In this document: in pieces, positions 11,160 to 21,563 of the stretch
Position numbering within the stretch: position 1 is the stretch's first letter
Layout of the letters: each line of letters starts with the position of its first letter
Source of the DNA: Caldicellulosiruptor kronotskyensis 2002
Lineage (GTDB): Bacteria > Bacillota > Thermoanaerobacteria > Caldicellulosiruptorales > Caldicellulosiruptoraceae
DNA length: 64,000 nucleotides
Reading direction: 5' to 3'
Assembly: GCF_000166775.1 (NCBI RefSeq)
Contig: NC_014720.1
Coordinates: forward strand, 831,501 to 895,500
Notes under the pieces: model-generated
The model's database searches: none
Seen by the model: the letters and a program-made list of their open reading frames with translations, nothing else
Told to the model about the DNA's origin: nothing
Program-made: the position numbers and the translations under genes

Positions 11160-11243
11160 AGAAAATAAAAAGGCCCTGCCAAATCGAAGCTCCAGGTTCC
11201 TACCTGGAAGGAATTTGTAGAGGCGGTGGGGCTCTATTTTTTT
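11160..11243 (+). ncRNA. Small structured RNA next to the DUF3800 gene
   Basis: About 80 nt with its own promoter. An outer stem pairs GCCCTGCC (11173-11180) with GGTGGGGC (11225-11232), including G-U pairs. An inner hairpin pairs CCAGGT with ACCTGG around TCCT (11192-11207). The outer stem is followed by seven T residues, so it is also the terminator. It abuts the 3' end of the DUF3800 gene on the opposite strand. Published comparative work describes several 'DUF3800' RNA motifs beside such genes; membership here is inferred from location only. Read on the minus strand, the same structure followed by TTTTTATTTT could terminate the DUF3800 transcript. Confidence 0.6.
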
Positions 11244-13376: not shown

Positions 13377-13868
13377 ATGCCTGTTTACAAACACAAGGCT
13401 GACAGAGAGGTTGAAAAATTTGTGTATGATTGGGGAGCTGCAACTTTAAAGCATCTTGCAGAACTTGTTTACCCTTTTCCAGAAGCAAAGCTTAAAAGAT
13501 TGATAAAAGGTTTGAGGGTTGAAGAAAGGGATGGAGTTTACTATGTTCCGTTCAGAAGACTAAAACCTGATGTAGAAAGAAGAAGACTTGCCTTTCTCGA
13601 CTTTATGGTAGATTTTCTCCAAGACAGAGTAACGTTTTATTATCCAGCAGATTTTCCTTTTGTCGCTCTTGTGAAAACAACAAAAGGGAAACTTGCATAT
13701 GTAACAGTAATATTCCCTGGCGAAGAAGAACTTGTGTCAGAAATAATTAACATGAATCCTCCAGAAAGCATTATTTGTGTGCTACAGAACAAAGAGCAGA
13801 AAAACAAAATAAAGCTAAAATCAAAAATAGTAAAATTTTACTTGCAAAACGGCGAGGAAGTTGTATAA
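13377..13868 (+). CDS. Hypothetical protein with winged-helix-like N terminus
   Basis: 163 residues. The N-terminal 60 residues ('REVEKFVYDWGAATLKHLAEL...AKLKRLIKGL') look like a winged helix of the replication-relaxation type, and the C-terminal half is alpha/beta ('FVALVKTTKGKLAYVTVIF'). I cannot name a family with certainty. GGAAGGAG precedes ATG 13377; an upstream in-frame start at 13305 has no ribosome site. It is transcribed divergently from DUF3800, and its stop lies 20 bp before the -35 box of the recombination operon promoter. Confidence 0.6.
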   Translation: MPVYKHKADREVEKFVYDWGAATLKHLAELVYPFPEAKLKRLIKGLRVEERDGVYYVPFRRLKPDVERRRLAFLDFMVDFLQDRVTFYYPADFPFVALVKTTKGKLAYVTVIFPGEEELVSEIINMNPPESIICVLQNKEQKNKIKLKSKIVKFYLQNGEEVV

Positions 13869-13887: not shown

Positions 13888-13916
13888 TTTGCAAAGTTAA
13901 AAAAATTGGGTATAAT
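13888..13916 (+). promoter_or_regulatory. Promoter of the recombination/replication operon
   Basis: TTTGCA (13888-13893), 17 bp, TATAAT (13911-13916), predicting a start near 13922. Confidence 0.7.
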
Positions 13917-13936
13917 ATAATCAAGAAGAAATTTCA

Positions 13937-14013
13937 GAGTCCAACCACTCAAGAGAGTAAAGCCACAGAGAGTTTGCGACAATGCAAATCATCTCTGTGG
14001 CTTTGTTTTTTAT
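13937..14013 (+). terminator. Leader attenuator of the recombination operon
   Basis: The leader first shows GAGTCCAACC (13937-13946). A perfect 13-bp stem follows, AAAGCCACAGAGA (13959-13971) with TCTCTGTGGCTTT (13992-14004), then GTTTTTTAT. It sits between the promoter and the first gene, so it must be read through or suppressed for operon expression. GAGT-ccaacc-ACTC can itself form a small hairpin just ahead of it. Confidence 0.75.
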
Positions 14014-14043: not shown

Positions 14044-14090
14044 GAGTCCCACCGATTTCGGAGTCCCACCGAAAAAGGAGTGAGTACACC
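14044..14090 (+). repeat. GAGTNNNACC unit 1 (three copies)
   Basis: GAGTCCCACC at 14044 and 14061 and GAGTACACC at 14082, the last ending immediately before the TTG start and overlapping the AAAGGAG ribosome site region. Confidence 0.75.
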
Positions 14091-14312: not shown

Positions 14313-14369
14313 CGGTGGGGTTCTCCCCTCCACCCTCTGGAGTTACACCAAAATGGGAGGGAGTTGAAC
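14313..14369 (+). repeat. Intergenic hairpin/GAGTT unit 2
   Basis: Hairpin GGTGGGG-ttct-CCCCTCCACC after the stop codon, then CTCTGGAGTTACACC (site 14340-14349), then GGGAGGGAGTTGAAC (site 14361-14369) touching ATG 14370. Confidence 0.8.
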
Positions 14370-14645: not shown

Positions 14646-14711
14646 CAGAGCTGAGCCTCAGCTGCCAGCTCTGTCTCTGGAGTTAAACTAAACTTTTGGA
14701 GGGGAGTTAAC
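14646..14711 (+). repeat. Intergenic hairpin/GAGTT unit 3
   Basis: GACAGAGCTG and CAGCTCTGTC form the hairpin; GAGTTAAACT at 14680; GGGGAGTTAAC (site 14704-14711) touches ATG 14712. Confidence 0.8.
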
Positions 14712-15695
14712 ATGGAAAAGAGTATTGTTAAAAGGAACGATATTCCTGAGGTAGTTTACACTTCTGAAGACGGAAAAGAAATTAGACTTACATTTGACAC
14801 AGTAAAACGATATCTCGTCAGCGGTGATGCGACAAAAGTAAACGACGAAGAAGTTGTACTATTTATGAAACTCTGCGAAAGCCAGAAATTAAACCCATTT
14901 AGAAAAGATGCATACCTTATCAAGTATGGTGACGAACCGGCAACAATAGTTGTTTCAAAGGATGTATTTATCAGAAGAGCGCAAAAGAGCGGTCTTTGCA
15001 ACGGATGGAGAGCAGGCATTGTTGTAAGGCACAGCGACGGAACTGTTGAATACCGAGAAGGAGCTTTACTACTGGATGGAGAACAGTTAGTTGGTGGCTG
15101 GGCTGAAGTATATAGAAAAGACTGGCAAGTGCCACTAAAAGTAACCGTATCTATTTCGGAATACATGAAAAAGAAAAAAGATGGACAACCGACAAAGAAC
15201 TGGTTACAAATGCCTGCCACACTCATCAGAAAAGTTGCTCTCTCGCAAGCATTGAGAGAAACATTTATGGAAGAACTTCAGGGATTGTACAGCGCAGAAG
15301 AAATGGGCGCAGATGAACTGGAAGAAGCTCCGATGGTACAGCCAGCAGTGATAACTGAGCCACAGTACAAAATAGAAGAAACTGTTCCTGAAGAACAAAG
15401 CCAGCCAGAACAGGTTAAACCTTCTGAACAACAGGTCAAACCAGATAAAAGCAAAGTTGAAGAACAATTCAAAGAAGAAGAAAAACAAGAGTTTATAAAA
15501 GTTCAAATTGAAGATGTGAACATACTCAGAGCAAAAAACGGCGGAGAATTTTTAAAAGTGAAAGCGAACGACAAAATATTCTATGCGCCAGCAAACGATA
15601 GAATGGTAAATGTTCTCACAAAAGGTGCTGTAGTTGATGTAAAGGTTGAGAAAAAAGGCGGCATCGATGTAATTACTGACTTCAAAGTAGCATAA
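14712..15695 (+). CDS. bet: Phage recombination protein Bet (RecT/Bet family annealase)
   Basis: 327 residues. The Bet core spans about 20-200, with 'EVVLFMKLCESQKLNPFRKDAYLIKY', 'RAQKSGLCNGWRAGI' and 'IRKVALSQALRETF' as landmarks. A Glu/Gln/Pro-rich linker (about 210-265) and a beta-rich C-terminal tail follow. Such annealases coat ssDNA made by a partner exonuclease and anneal complementary strands. The PD-(D/E)XK nuclease encoded 1.7 kb downstream in the same operon is the likely partner. Confidence 0.92.
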   Translation: MEKSIVKRNDIPEVVYTSEDGKEIRLTFDTVKRYLVSGDATKVNDEEVVLFMKLCESQKLNPFRKDAYLIKYGDEPATIVVSKDVFIRRAQKSGLCNGWRAGIVVRHSDGTVEYREGALLLDGEQLVGGWAEVYRKDWQVPLKVTVSISEYMKKKKDGQPTKNWLQMPATLIRKVALSQALRETFMEELQGLYSAEEMGADELEEAPMVQPAVITEPQYKIEETVPEEQSQPEQVKPSEQQVKPDKSKVEEQFKEEEKQEFIKVQIEDVNILRAKNGGEFLKVKANDKIFYAPANDRMVNVLTKGAVVDVKVEKKGGIDVITDFKVA

Positions 15696-15697
15696 AA

Positions 15698-15759
15698 AAG
15701 GGAGAGGATCCCTCCTCTCCCTCTGAGTTCCACCAACCAAGGGAAAGGGGAGTTAAACT
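15698..15759 (+). repeat. Intergenic hairpin/GAGTT unit 4
   Basis: Hairpin GGGAGAGG-atcc-CTCCTCTCCC; GAGTTCCACC at 15725; GGGGAGTTAAACT (site 15750-15759) touches ATG 15760. Confidence 0.8.
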
Positions 15760-15960: not shown

Positions 15961-16012
15961 GCAAGGGATGTTTCCCTTGCTTCTCAAGAGTTAAACCATC
16001 AACTGAGTAAAC
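15958..16012 (+). repeat. Intergenic hairpin/GAGTT unit 5
   Basis: Hairpin AGCAAGGGA-tgt-TTCCCTTGCT; GAGTTAAACC at 15988; GAGTAAAC at 16005. Here the second copy is not next to a start codon but leads into the toxin-like module. Confidence 0.75.
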
Positions 16013-16360: not shown

Positions 16361-16406
16361 GGGCAACTGCCTCGGAGTTATACCAATAAGAAAGGGGAGT
16401 TAAACC
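16361..16406 (+). repeat. Intergenic GAGTT unit 6
   Basis: Short hairpin GGCA-ac-TGCC; CTCGGAGTTATACC (site 16375-16384); GGGGAGTTAAACC (site 16397-16406) touches ATG 16407. Confidence 0.8.
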
Positions 16407-16638: not shown

Positions 16639-16699
16639 TTCTTGGCAGGGACTTGTCCCCTGCCTCAGAGTTAAACAATTAAGAAAGGGGAGTTGACCT
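16639..16699 (+). repeat. Intergenic hairpin/GAGTT unit 7
   Basis: Hairpin GGCAGGGAC-ttg-TCCCCTGCC; GAGTTAAAC at 16668; GGGGAGTTGACCT (site 16690-16699) touches ATG 16700. Confidence 0.8.
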
Positions 16700-17391: not shown

Positions 17392-18369
17392 ATGATAGAG
17401 TTAATTGATGTTATGAAAGGAAGTTACTCAAGACTTCAGCTTTTTGAGAAGTGCCAGAAAGCCTTTTATTACAAATACGTAAAAGGAATTGAGTACAGCA
17501 CACCTGCAATGGAGTTTGGCAGAATCATCCACGAAGAACTTGCAAAATTTTTAACTACTGGCGTCGAAGGTGAGAACGTTAAACAATTCCTTACCCAAAA
17601 AGTCAGACATTATGCTGGTGTTCATCCTGAATACGTCGAGTTTGAACTCAAATTCACATCGCCATCTGGTACGGAATACACAGCTGTGATTGACCTTTTT
17701 GATAACAGAACATCAAAAGTGCTGGACTGGAAAACAAGTTGGCAGAAGAGCTCAGATGTAAAACAGTTATACCTTTATGCGAATGCACTTAAACAGAATG
17801 GTTATGAACCACGCTACCTGTCGTTCTTCTATTTGAGGTACAACGAAGAGATTGAGACAGAGTTGGATCAAAATAAACTTGTTGAAACACTTGATTGGAT
17901 ATCAATAATTGAAGATATAATGAACGAGAAAGTATTCTTGTATTCGATGAGTGGCGATGAAGAAGAATTTGAAAAGAACTACTCATCATGTAAAGGCTGT
18001 CCATACTCAGCAATATGCCTTGGCGAAAATATTACTGACAAACAGAAAGCGTTGGAACTTGCAAAGTACATTGAAGAACTTGAAGCAAAATTAAATGCTG
18101 CAAAAGATGCATTAAAAACATATTTAGAAGAAACGGGAGAAGAACTTGTAACAGATTCAGGAGTATGGCGCTTGACTCCGGTAAATAGTTTTAGCTTTGA
18201 CACTCGTAAAGTTTGGGAATATATTAAAAGTGTTGGCAAAGATCCAATTGAATTTGCAAACTTCACAGCAACAAATCTTAAGAAATTAAAGCTAACAGAT
18301 GATGTATTAGAGCAATTAGGTGAGAGAAAAATCACATATCAATTGAAAAAAGTAAAGAAACAGGGTTGA
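17392..18369 (+). CDS. PD-(D/E)XK nuclease of the RecB/Cas4/AddB type with iron-sulfur cysteines
   Basis: 325 residues. The nuclease core includes 'SYSRLQLFEKC', 'GRIIHEEL', Asp101 ('AVIDLF') and Asp112-x-Lys114 ('LDWKTSW') followed by 'QLYLYANAL'. Cys21, Cys200, Cys203 and Cys209 ('CKGCPYSAIC') have the 4Fe-4S spacing of AddB and Cas4 nucleases. No helicase domain is fused. With Bet in the same operon it probably forms an exonuclease-annealase pair for homologous recombination (inference). ATG 17392 directly follows GAGTTGAAC; TTG 17386 would lie inside it. Confidence 0.88.
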   Translation: MIELIDVMKGSYSRLQLFEKCQKAFYYKYVKGIEYSTPAMEFGRIIHEELAKFLTTGVEGENVKQFLTQKVRHYAGVHPEYVEFELKFTSPSGTEYTAVIDLFDNRTSKVLDWKTSWQKSSDVKQLYLYANALKQNGYEPRYLSFFYLRYNEEIETELDQNKLVETLDWISIIEDIMNEKVFLYSMSGDEEEFEKNYSSCKGCPYSAICLGENITDKQKALELAKYIEELEAKLNAAKDALKTYLEETGEELVTDSGVWRLTPVNSFSFDTRKVWEYIKSVGKDPIEFANFTATNLKKLKLTDDVLEQLGERKITYQLKKVKKQG

Positions 18370-18427
18370 GAAGGATATCCTTCTCTTCCCTCTCCTTTCG
18401 GAGTAAAACCGAAAGGGGGAGTTGAAC
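18370..18427 (+). repeat. Intergenic hairpin/GAGT unit 10
   Basis: Hairpin GAGAAGGA-TATCCTTCTC; CTTTCGGAGTAAAACC (site 18401-18410) with GGTTTTACTCC-type symmetry to CGAAAGG; GGGGGAGTTGAAC (site 18419-18427) touches GTG 18428. Confidence 0.75.
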
Positions 18428-18919
18428 GTGAAAAACCAGCTTAGTTTTTTTGATAGAAAGGTATATGCACCTGAGCCAAGATGTATTGCACAAAAATACC
18501 GAATTTCACTAATAAAAGAGGAGTCTTTTGCATATAACTTTCAACTTGCGAATGTTAGTCTTGCAGTTGACTTTCTAAAAAAACATCTAAAATTACATTT
18601 AGAACCTGAAGAAGTTTTAGTTGTACTTTGTCTCGATGTCCAGTTAAACCTGAATGCTATTTTTGAAGTAAGCAGAGGGACGCTCAACTTTGCTCCTGCT
18701 AATACACGTGAAATTTTTAAGAGGGTACTACTAACAAACTGTCACAGTATAATCATTGCGCATAACCATCCCGGTGGTTCTGCAAAACCATCGATGGATG
18801 ACATCGACACGACAAAGAAAATAAAAGAAGCTGCACAACTGCTGGACATAAGGCTCAACGACCACATTATTATAGCAGAAGATTCCTATTATTCGTTCTC
18901 ACAAGCAGGAATACTATAG
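18428..18919 (+). CDS. RadC-like JAB/MPN-domain protein
   Basis: 163 residues, essentially the RadC C-terminal JAB1/MPN+ domain. The metal motif is His112-x-His114-Pro-Gly-Gly ('IAHNHPGGSAKPSMDD'), preceded by 'VSRGTLNFAPANTREIFKRVL'. Chromosomal RadC is about 225 residues with an N-terminal helix-hairpin-helix; this mobile-element form lacks it. The biochemical role of RadC is unresolved. The GTG start is set by the adjacent GAGTTGAAC repeat. Confidence 0.88.
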   Translation: MKNQLSFFDRKVYAPEPRCIAQKYRISLIKEESFAYNFQLANVSLAVDFLKKHLKLHLEPEEVLVVLCLDVQLNLNAIFEVSRGTLNFAPANTREIFKRVLLTNCHSIIIAHNHPGGSAKPSMDDIDTTKKIKEAAQLLDIRLNDHIIIAEDSYYSFSQAGIL

Positions 18920-19009
18920 GAGAGGTGCTCCCTCTCCCTCTTGTCGGAGTTTTACTCAAAAGCGAGTAAAACAAAACTGAGTAAAAAATAAGAAGGGAGA
19001 GGGAGTGCC
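18917..19009 (+). repeat. Intergenic hairpin/GAGT unit 11
   Basis: Hairpin GGAGAGG-tgct-CCCTCTCC; GAGTTTTACTC (18947-18957); GAGTAAAAC at 18964; GAGTAAAAA at 18979; GGGAGTGCC ending at 19009 next to ATG 19010. Confidence 0.7.
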
Positions 19010-20125
19010 ATGATGAAACATGAACTTGTTGACATTAGGATGGATTTTGTGTTGAATTTATTAAGACTTCATGTTGTAAAACAACATGGTAACGAGTTGA
19101 ACACTTATTGTCCGAAGTGTGATAACAAGATAAAAGGAGAAGGACACCTTTATATCAATGTTTACAAGAACACATTTTACTGCCACAAGTGTGGCGTGGG
19201 CGGAAATGCGCTTCAGCTCTATGCATGGTTGAACAATTTGGATACAAAAGAAGCTTACAGGGAAATTGTACAAGAACTAAAAGGCGCAAAAAGAGCACGT
19301 AAAGCTGTTGCAGAACCTACTGCCACATATAACGTCAATGTTGTCAAGACTGAAAATCTTGCACCAGTAGAGCAAAGAGATTTGGTTTACAGGGAATTCC
19401 TGAACTTGTTAGACCTCGACGATGAGCACAGAGAACACCTGCTGGGAAGAGGTTTAACTGACACATTTACAAAATTCAAAATGTATAAAAGTCTAAACAT
19501 CAAAGACGAAAAAAGTAGAAAAGAAATTTGCAAAAAGCTCATTGAAAAAGGTTTAACCTTAGAGGGAGTACCTGGCTTCTTCAGACACTCTAACGGCGAT
19601 TGGGACTTTATCCCATACAACGGCTTCTGTATACCTGTCCGTGATTTAGAGGGCAGGATACAGGGATTGCAGGTTAGAATTGTCGGAGATACTAATGGTG
19701 GCAAATACAGGTGGTTTTCATCGGGTAACATTCCTACTGGAACAGGAGCTAAAAACTTTGTACATGTTGTAGGTACATTTAATGAAGAGAGATACAAAAG
19801 AGTATTTATAATCGAAGGCGCTCTCAAAGCTGATATATGTTCATATCTTATGGATGGCGAAATGTTCATAGGAATCCCTGGTATTGCAAATAGCCACGAT
19901 CAAGTAGTTGAAGTTGTAAAAAAGCTCGGACTGAAATATGAAGGAGAGGTATATGTAGTAGTTGACAATGACTATTATGATAAAAAAGAAGTAAAAAATT
20001 CATTTGAAAGGATAAAAAAGAAATTTAATGATAATGGAATTAGCATTTTAAGACTTGGATTTAACTTGAATTACAAAGGCTTTGATGATTATCTGCTTGC
20101 AAAGGTTCGAGGAGAGTGTGTTTAA
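19010..20125 (+). CDS. DnaG-type primase (CHC2 zinc finger plus Toprim)
   Basis: 371 residues. The N-terminal zinc finger is C34xxC37 and C58xxC61 ('YCHKCGVGGNALQL'). The mid-region has the primase core 'GFCIPVRDLEGRIQGLQVRI'. The Toprim domain has 'FIIEGALKADI' and 'VYVVVDNDYYDKKE'. The helicase-binding C terminus of chromosomal DnaG is missing, as in phage and plasmid primases. It is the last gene of the recombination operon and probably primes lagging-strand or post-transfer synthesis of the element. Confidence 0.9.
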   Translation: MMKHELVDIRMDFVLNLLRLHVVKQHGNELNTYCPKCDNKIKGEGHLYINVYKNTFYCHKCGVGGNALQLYAWLNNLDTKEAYREIVQELKGAKRARKAVAEPTATYNVNVVKTENLAPVEQRDLVYREFLNLLDLDDEHREHLLGRGLTDTFTKFKMYKSLNIKDEKSRKEICKKLIEKGLTLEGVPGFFRHSNGDWDFIPYNGFCIPVRDLEGRIQGLQVRIVGDTNGGKYRWFSSGNIPTGTGAKNFVHVVGTFNEERYKRVFIIEGALKADICSYLMDGEMFIGIPGIANSHDQVVEVVKKLGLKYEGEVYVVVDNDYYDKKEVKNSFERIKKKFNDNGISILRLGFNLNYKGFDDYLLAKVRGECV

Positions 20126-20737: not shown

Positions 20738-20829
20738 TTGAAATAAAGTTATCAATACGATATAATATACTTAAATTCATTGCCAGAAATACAACTTTTA
20801 GGTGTTTATATAGAATGTCAAATTTTTTG
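20738..20829 (+). promoter_or_regulatory. Repeated promoter-leader, copy 1
   Basis: TTGAAA (20738-20743), 17 bp, TATAAT (20761-20766). A conserved 51-nt leader from ATTGCC (20779) to the T run at 20829 follows, containing CTTTTAGGTGTT and AATGTCAAATTTTTTG. Confidence 0.75.
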
Positions 20830-20832
20830 TTG

Positions 20833-20925
20833 TTGCAATTTTAAACAACAGTGGTATAATATATTCAGAATCAATTGCCATAAATGTATCTTTTAGGTGT
20901 TAATACAAAGTGTCAAATTTTTTGA
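20833..20925 (+). promoter_or_regulatory. Repeated promoter-leader, copy 2
   Basis: TTGCAA (20833-20838), 16 bp, TATAAT (20855-20860), with the leader from 20874 (ATTGCC) ending in GTGTCAAATTTTTTG. It is followed by an attenuator-like terminator and then a 34-codon gene. Confidence 0.75.
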
Positions 20926-20986: not shown

Positions 20987-21091
20987 ATGTTAACGCATCC
21001 ACTGATTATTGTGTTTCTCATATGGTTTGTTCCTTTGGCACTGTTCAAAATCACGGCAATTTTAAAGGATGAAGATGATTCAGAATTTTAG
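20987..21091 (+). CDS. Hydrophobic 34-residue peptide
   Basis: ATG with AAAGGAG 12 bases upstream encodes a peptide with one membrane helix ('PLIIVFLIWFVPLALF', about 5-20) and an acidic tail DEDDSEF. No family is recognised. It lies between promoter-leader copies 2 and 3 and behind an intrinsic terminator, suggesting tight control, as for small membrane toxins or regulators. A clear antisense unit was not found here. Confidence 0.5.
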   Translation: MLTHPLIIVFLIWFVPLALFKITAILKDEDDSEF

Positions 21092-21101
21092 TAATTCCCT
21101 G

Positions 21102-21194
21102 TTGAAACATCCATTTGGTTGTGATAAAATATAATCAAATCTATTGCCAGAAATATACTTTTTAGATGTTTATAAAGAATGTCAAATTTTTTTG
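21102..21194 (+). promoter_or_regulatory. Repeated promoter-leader, copy 3
   Basis: TTGAAA (21102-21107), 17 bp, TAAAAT (21125-21130), with the leader from 21143 (ATTGCCAGAAATA) to GTCAAATTTTTTT. Transcription would enter the structured region 21205-21417. Confidence 0.75.
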
Positions 21195-21204
21195 AAGGGG
21201 GTAT

Positions 21205-21417
21205 GTCAAGAAGCTGTGAGTTTGGCAAAAACACGTTCGTGGTTTGGGGTATTTAAAAGGGAGAAAGGTTTTCCCCTTTCTCCCACCCCACTAATCACCG
21301 CCAGACTCACAGAAGGTGGTATAACTCAAGGTGTAACTCCAGACTATATAGTGATTATATCACAAGTCCATTGCAAATACAATGGACTGCCCTCCAAAGG
21401 GGCACCCCTTTCGGGGT
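21205..21417 (+). ncRNA. Highly structured region, possible plus-strand RNA
   Basis: A 13-bp stem CTGTGAGTTTGGC/GCCAGACTCACAG (21214-21226 with 21300-21312) encloses TGGGGT/ACCCCA and GGGAGAAAGG/CCTTTCTCCC (21245-21290). After a linker come GTGAT/ATCAC, GTCCATTG/CAATGGAC (21366-21387) and ACCCC-tttc-GGGGT (21404-21417). The linker holds GGTATAACTC (21318-21327) and GGTGTAACTCCAGA (21330-21343), reverse complements of the operon's GAGTTNNACC sites. An open frame across it (21144-21464) is judged non-coding. Confidence 0.5.
21252..21347 (-). ncRNA. Minus-strand small RNA with two GAGTTNNACC copies
   Basis: The minus-strand promoter is TTGTAT (21382-21377), 17 bp, TATAAT (21359-21354) with an extended TGA. 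The transcript would begin near 21347, carry GAGTTACACC and GAGTTATACC in tandem within its first 30 nt, and end after the GGGAGAAAGG/CCTTTCTCCC stem with a short TTTT. The layout (promoter, GAGTNNNACC, terminator) repeats that of the operon leader at 13888-14013. Confidence 0.55.
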
Positions 21418-21487
21418 TAATTATAAAACAAAACTTGAAAGAGGCAAAAGACAATGAAAATTAAGAAAGTAGGCAAAAGAGAACTTA

Positions 21488-21563
21488 TGGCAGGGGCGGA
21501 GGGACTCGAACCCCCAGCCAACGGTTTTGGAGACCGCTACTCTACCAATTGAGCTACGCCCCT
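21488..21563 (-). tRNA. tRNA-Trp (CCA)
   Basis: Cloverleaf on the minus strand: acceptor AGGGGCG/CGCCCCT, anticodon loop CTCCAAA with anticodon CCA, T-loop GGTTCGAGTCC, and an encoded 3' CCA. It lies at the junction between the mobile element and ordinary chromosomal genes, so it may be the integration target; the other attachment site would be outside the window. Confidence 0.95.

Follow-up and report, generated by a model that had tools for sequence, protein, structure and literature searches.

The window analysed here is a stretch of 64,000 nucleotides of Caldicellulosiruptor kronotskyensis 2002 (NC_014720.1; G000:831501-895500) and contains the right end of a mobile element. A 46-bp direct repeat links the tRNA-Trp gene (21488-21563, minus strand), which is the integration target, to G000:782059-782104 outside the window, the two copies being attR (21487-21532) and attL, respectively; between them lie a tyrosine integrase adjoining attL, VirB4, VirD4 and ParM. 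The att repeat at tRNA-Trp, the integrase, VirB4 and VirD4 are the defining features of an integrative conjugative element (ICE), and the region is therefore described as an ICE of 70.9 kb. A literature search on ICEs in Caldicellulosiruptor found no relevant paper. Next to the tRNA, at 21405-21487, the integrase/HTH promoter region and the first HTH codons are duplicated and interrupted at the tRNA, a duplication present only in G000 and in the tRNA-Trp element of G008. A CRISPR spacer of another genome (G001:2764348-2764377) matches this promoter region (21405-21437), so that ICEs of this kind are CRISPR targets. On the G008 chromosome the ICE ends at tRNA-Trp and tRNA-Arg are mispaired, as if the elements had rearranged with each other. 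Elsewhere in the window an Rfam DUF3800-VIII RNA (11170-11235) is found amid two transposase genes, with a DUF3800-like gene nearby on the opposite strand.

The ICE carries a plus-strand operon encoding RecT (14712-15695), a PD-(D/E)XK (Cas4-like) nuclease (17392-18369), a RadC-like protein (18428-18919) and a DnaG-like primase (19010-20125), for which no relative was found in the other genomes and viral contigs searched. The operon is marked by short boxes of consensus GAGTNNNACC, mostly paired, whose middle bases (NNN) vary freely. In the promoter and leader region (13889-14010) GAGTCCAACC at 13937 is followed by GAGTAAAGCC at 13955, which overlaps the 5' arm of an intrinsic terminator. Two boxes GAGTCCCACC (14044-14070) precede a 73-aa ORF (14091), and further pairs precede a 91-aa ORF (14340-14369, the second copy forming the Shine-Dalgarno region), recT (14680-14711), a Zn-ribbon ORF (15725-15758), a 76-aa ORF (16375-16406), a second Zn-ribbon ORF (16668-16698) and radC (18401-18427); one intergenic pair has a 17-nt spacing (15988-16012). 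In the usual order the first box comes after the end hairpin of the upstream gene and the second copy is the Shine-Dalgarno (SD) region. Degenerate boxes lie within a strong anti-SD:SD hairpin before the primase (18947-18999, z = -6.0), and pairing between an upstream C-rich stretch and the SD exceeded that of shuffles (p<=0.05) at 5 of 22 SD sites of this ICE family. The orthologous operons in G006 and G008 have boxes at equivalent positions. For GAGTTNNACC the window has 8 occurrences where 1.31 are expected, and none of 100 shuffles reached 8. The operon copies are all on the plus strand and the only minus-strand copies are two at the right end of the ICE.

These two copies belong to a putative small RNA gene just inside attR. 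On the minus strand a promoter (21354-21382) is composed of a -35 TTGTAT (21382-21377), a 17-bp spacer and an extended TGTGATATAAT with the -10 at 21359-21354, which predicts a start near 21347. Downstream follow box 1, GAGTTACACC (21339-21330), box 2, GAGTTATACC, in tandem (21327-21318), a degenerate box GAGTCTGGC (21308-21300) 19 nt after box 2, and a stem (21284-21259) followed by TTTTAAATA; this hairpin with its short U-run (21252-21284) would be a weak terminator. From the predicted start and the stem with TTTTAAATA, an RNA of about 95 nt (21252-21347) is deduced, the putative decoy discussed below. A preliminary description of the window, which had proposed this promoter, the two boxes and a GC hairpin and had matched both boxes exactly to the operon sites at 14340 and 16375, is confirmed on all these points, including the span. 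In an Rfam search neither this RNA nor its counterpart in sister ICEs had a match at gathering score, the only matches being tRNA, pan and DUF3800-VIII, all away from the small RNAs. A plus-strand peptide over the hairpin was dropped, since the reading frame differs between ICE copies.

The right ends of five elements of the same family could be aligned (G000, G008-Trp, G008-Arg, G006 and G009). All retain, with few changes, the order CAAGTCCATTG-N6-CAATGGACTTG-TGATATAATC-CTATAT-GTC-GGAGTTACACC, while the next 100 bases diverge with the exception of the hairpin core. The -10 region, the promoter spacing and GGAGTTACACC of box 1 are invariant in the five copies. The inner stem is also kept in all five, but the U-run is lost in G006. 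The preliminary description had proposed to look for the same RNA next to related operons, and had taken loss of the tandem motif where the operon motif is kept as evidence against a sponge. The promoter and GGAGTTACACC are present in 5/5, whereas the tandem second box is found only in G000 and G008-Trp; G006 and G008-Arg keep their operon boxes with one good box in the RNA, which in part counts against the sponge by that standard. A degenerate GAGTY box (including GAGTT) stands at the 19-nt spacing in all five. With promoter and GGAGTTACACC kept and the tandem mostly not, the conserved unit is a promoter with one strong box. The right-end boxes resemble the operon motif well but not overwhelmingly, with motif scores of 15.0 and 12.6 when chance hits in coding sequence reach up to 14.3, with one outlier of 20.5.

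It is very improbable that there is no functional RNA here and that the locus consists of a tRNA terminator hairpin, a promoter-like sequence and a chance box. The inverted repeat CAAGTCCATTG-N6-CAATGGACT over the -35 (21363-21388), single copy in each element and adjoining the tRNA, is followed by a T-run in a G006 relic, where it behaves like a tRNA terminator, and the U-run of the small RNA is weak; against this, the TATAAT region and GGAGTTACACC remain unchanged amid diverging sequence. A dif-like recombination core was also considered for this 11-6-11 inverted repeat and rejected, its use as tRNA terminator in a G006 relic being simpler.

The main rival to a decoy is a DNA site. GGAGTTACACC occurs, inward-facing, also just inside attL in G000, G008a, G006 and G009, with GAAGTTACACC in G008b, and may therefore be the site of a recombination protein at the element ends, an integrase arm or excisionase site whose likeness to the operon box is due to chance. 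In G000 the left copy (G000:782115-782125) is 16 bp past the integrase stop and inward-facing like the right-end copy; a decoy leaves this copy, which has no obvious transcript, unexplained, while a DNA site explains it. A 17-bp match between the left and right ends of G000, the presence of the same variant (TCTGG or TCGGG) left and right in most elements, and, in the sister ICEs, arm-like tandem repeats TGTTAGAAA at the two ends point in the same direction. However, in the integrase, of 329 aa, the SAM-like domain is preceded by only about 33 residues, fewer than a usual arm-binding domain would need, the left site is very near the core at a variable distance, and the right site stands behind an invariant promoter. 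Taken together we consider a recombination site unlikely.

On the evidence of its own family alone the idea of a decoy, or sponge, RNA would be weak. Five sister ICEs (G001, G005, G007, G010 and G012) carry a homologous operon with 45-48% protein identity. The sister operons do not have GAGTNNNACC; at the corresponding places, before nearly every gene, they carry tandem AGTTWGC(C) boxes, mostly 14-16 nt apart, the second copy overlapping leader terminators or adjoining the SD sequence, so that the layout is shared and the box differs. A genome scan found 19-26 AGTTWGC pairs per sister genome, concentrated in the ICE and with few exceptions sharing one strand, against 1-3 in genomes without a sister element and none in reversed-pattern controls. 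Many first boxes have a C-rich stretch on one side and the SD on the other; of 60 SD sites in the sister family, 23 show stronger pairing of the upstream C-rich stretch with the SD than shuffles do (p<=0.05). Outside the ICE, at G000:332024, a AGTTTGCC box pair of the sister type, equipped with a promoter of its own, precedes a chromosomal HTH (antitoxin-like) gene standing behind a toxin-like ORF; this pair is also present in other genomes.

All five sister ICEs have one putative RNA gene, on the opposite strand and free of ORFs, with AGTTWGC-type boxes. An extended -10 promoter leads into three boxes separated by 7-9 nt, which are followed by a GC hairpin and a strong intrinsic terminator; the folding z-scores lie around -4 to -5, and the boxes are retained and the spacers divergent. 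In G010 (G010:373.1-373.3 kb), G005, G007 and G001 it adjoins parM, flanked on both sides by genes of the other strand; the neighbours are different in G012, and no gene follows on its own strand. Upstream of the extended -10, the sister RNA promoters that were read carry TGTTCG repeats 12 bp apart, a possible operator. Since the locus is near parM in one ICE family and at the right end in the other, no homology between the two RNAs is claimed. The sister RNAs carry the box type of their own family, and the box sequence thus changes together in mRNAs and small RNA; as both families pair boxed mRNAs with a boxed small RNA, the arrangement is recurrent and co-varying. Judged by its boxes, the sister RNA is the independent arrangement that a sponge would predict. 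The sponge proposed in the preliminary description is thus partly supported, by five elements with a three-box RNA of their own type, but the GGAGTTACACC inside attL is still not accounted for by it.

The sister RNAs bear also on two further readings. It is quite unlikely that the right-end sequence is a cis-acting leader, in which factor-dependent read-through of the terminator would give antisense transcription into plus-strand promoters and a 34-aa ORF. The order promoter-box-hairpin is the same as in the operon leader (13889-14010), three plus-strand promoters face the minus-strand RNA, and in G000 the third box is within the outer stem; but the boxes of the sister RNAs are well upstream of the terminator, without overlap, and neither family has a minus-strand gene downstream. 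The three plus-strand promoters (20759-20828, 20854-20923 and 21123-21192) share one leader sequence, about 50 nt long and with a T-run at its end; four further copies are present elsewhere in the ICE. The 34-aa ORF (20987-21091, plus strand; MLTHPLIIVFLIWFVPLALFKITAILKDEDDSEF), conserved next to the minus-strand RNA, contains a likely membrane helix and could encode a small membrane peptide. The least probable of the readings weighed here is that the functional RNA is the plus strand (promoter 21102-21130), acting by antisense pairing with the operon boxes. The plus strand folds strongly (z = -6.8), its promoter and leader are conserved, and the boxes find their complement in GGTGTAACTCC. Fixed base pairing is nevertheless incompatible with the freely variable middle bases of the operon boxes, and the sister small RNA bears the sense box, not its complement.

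The best explanation, to which we assign a probability of about 0.5, is that the minus-strand RNA is an ICE-encoded decoy for an ICE-encoded factor reading the boxes. We infer from the arrangement of the sequences that such a factor would bind the box pairs of the mRNA, whether nascent or mature, and that its binding at the operon would set whether leader terminators form and whether SD sequences are masked. The small RNA, if transcribed, would display the same box near its 5' end with no gene behind and compete for the factor, which would so be titrated. Two proteins common to both ICE families are candidates for this factor, an S1-domain protein and DUF5697. The DUF5697 gene (13377-13868, plus strand) is upstream of a boxed leader in both families, and no inspected copy of the gene carries boxes itself. 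AGTTWGC-like sequences are not enriched at DUF5697 loci that lie outside the ICEs described here, and the boxes therefore do not come with DUF5697 alone. The structure of the protein was modelled with confidence (pLDDT 90) but gave no convincing match in the PDB. Literature searches found no paper on DUF5697 and none joining ICEs, small RNAs, RNA-binding proteins and antitermination.

A wider proposal, to which we give slightly less than even odds, is that both ICE families have an element-wide post-transcriptional regulon. It would be composed of a tandem RNA box private to the family, located on leader terminators and next to most operon SDs, an element-encoded reader and a cognate decoy RNA, with specificity diverged between families, so that the elements may not cross-talk. 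Were this true, the genes by which an ICE recombines and replicates would be under an RNA-level regulon that has a decoy of its own, with a code that differs between related ICEs, and the system would illustrate how mobile elements may keep post-transcriptional codes to themselves. Comparing the two families offers a readily available way of searching for the RNA-binding protein.

The arrangement can be compared to three known types of regulation. In BglG/LicT systems the RAT, like the ICE site, overlaps the 5' arm of a terminator, but it is one imperfect hairpin and the ICE sites are tandem short boxes; no CAT-RBD protein was seen among the ICE proteins scanned, and we know of no BglG/LicT-type RAT system of which a decoy RNA is part. 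The analogy with CsrB and CsrA drawn in the preliminary description holds for the logic of titration and for a small RNA, as with CsrB/CsrC, repeating an mRNA motif found also at SD regions, and fails as a family assignment: the ICE small RNAs have 1-3 boxes and no array of many GGA loops, the ICE boxes are also on terminators, and there was no CsrA among the ICE proteins scanned. In the EutV/EutX (Rli55) system paired RNA sites, one of them overlapping the leader terminator, are bound by a regulator which is sequestered by a small RNA with the same sites, and ANTAR sites are defined as hexaloop hairpins with A1 and G4 (PMC8934654). The second ICE box likewise overlaps the leader terminator, e.g. 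at 13937/13955 and in the sister leaders, and at the sequence level the putative ICE small RNA carries the same sites as the mRNAs. In distinction to ANTAR sites, the sister box hairpin (TTTGGC-AGTTT-GCCAAA) has a 5-nt loop and the box of the window's own family (GG-AGTNNNA-CC) a 7-nt loop, neither being an A1/G4 hexaloop, and the ICE sites also precede most operon genes beside the SD. No riboswitch was seen, a difference from EutX, and no ANTAR-domain regulator among about 30 ICE proteins scanned. As the ICE boxes lack the A1/G4 hexaloops of the EutV/EutX sites and the ICE small RNAs the GGA-loop array of Csr, the ICE system is not assigned to either family, and on this comparison the decoy is best read as one that would work like EutX/Rli55 or CsrB while being a member of neither.
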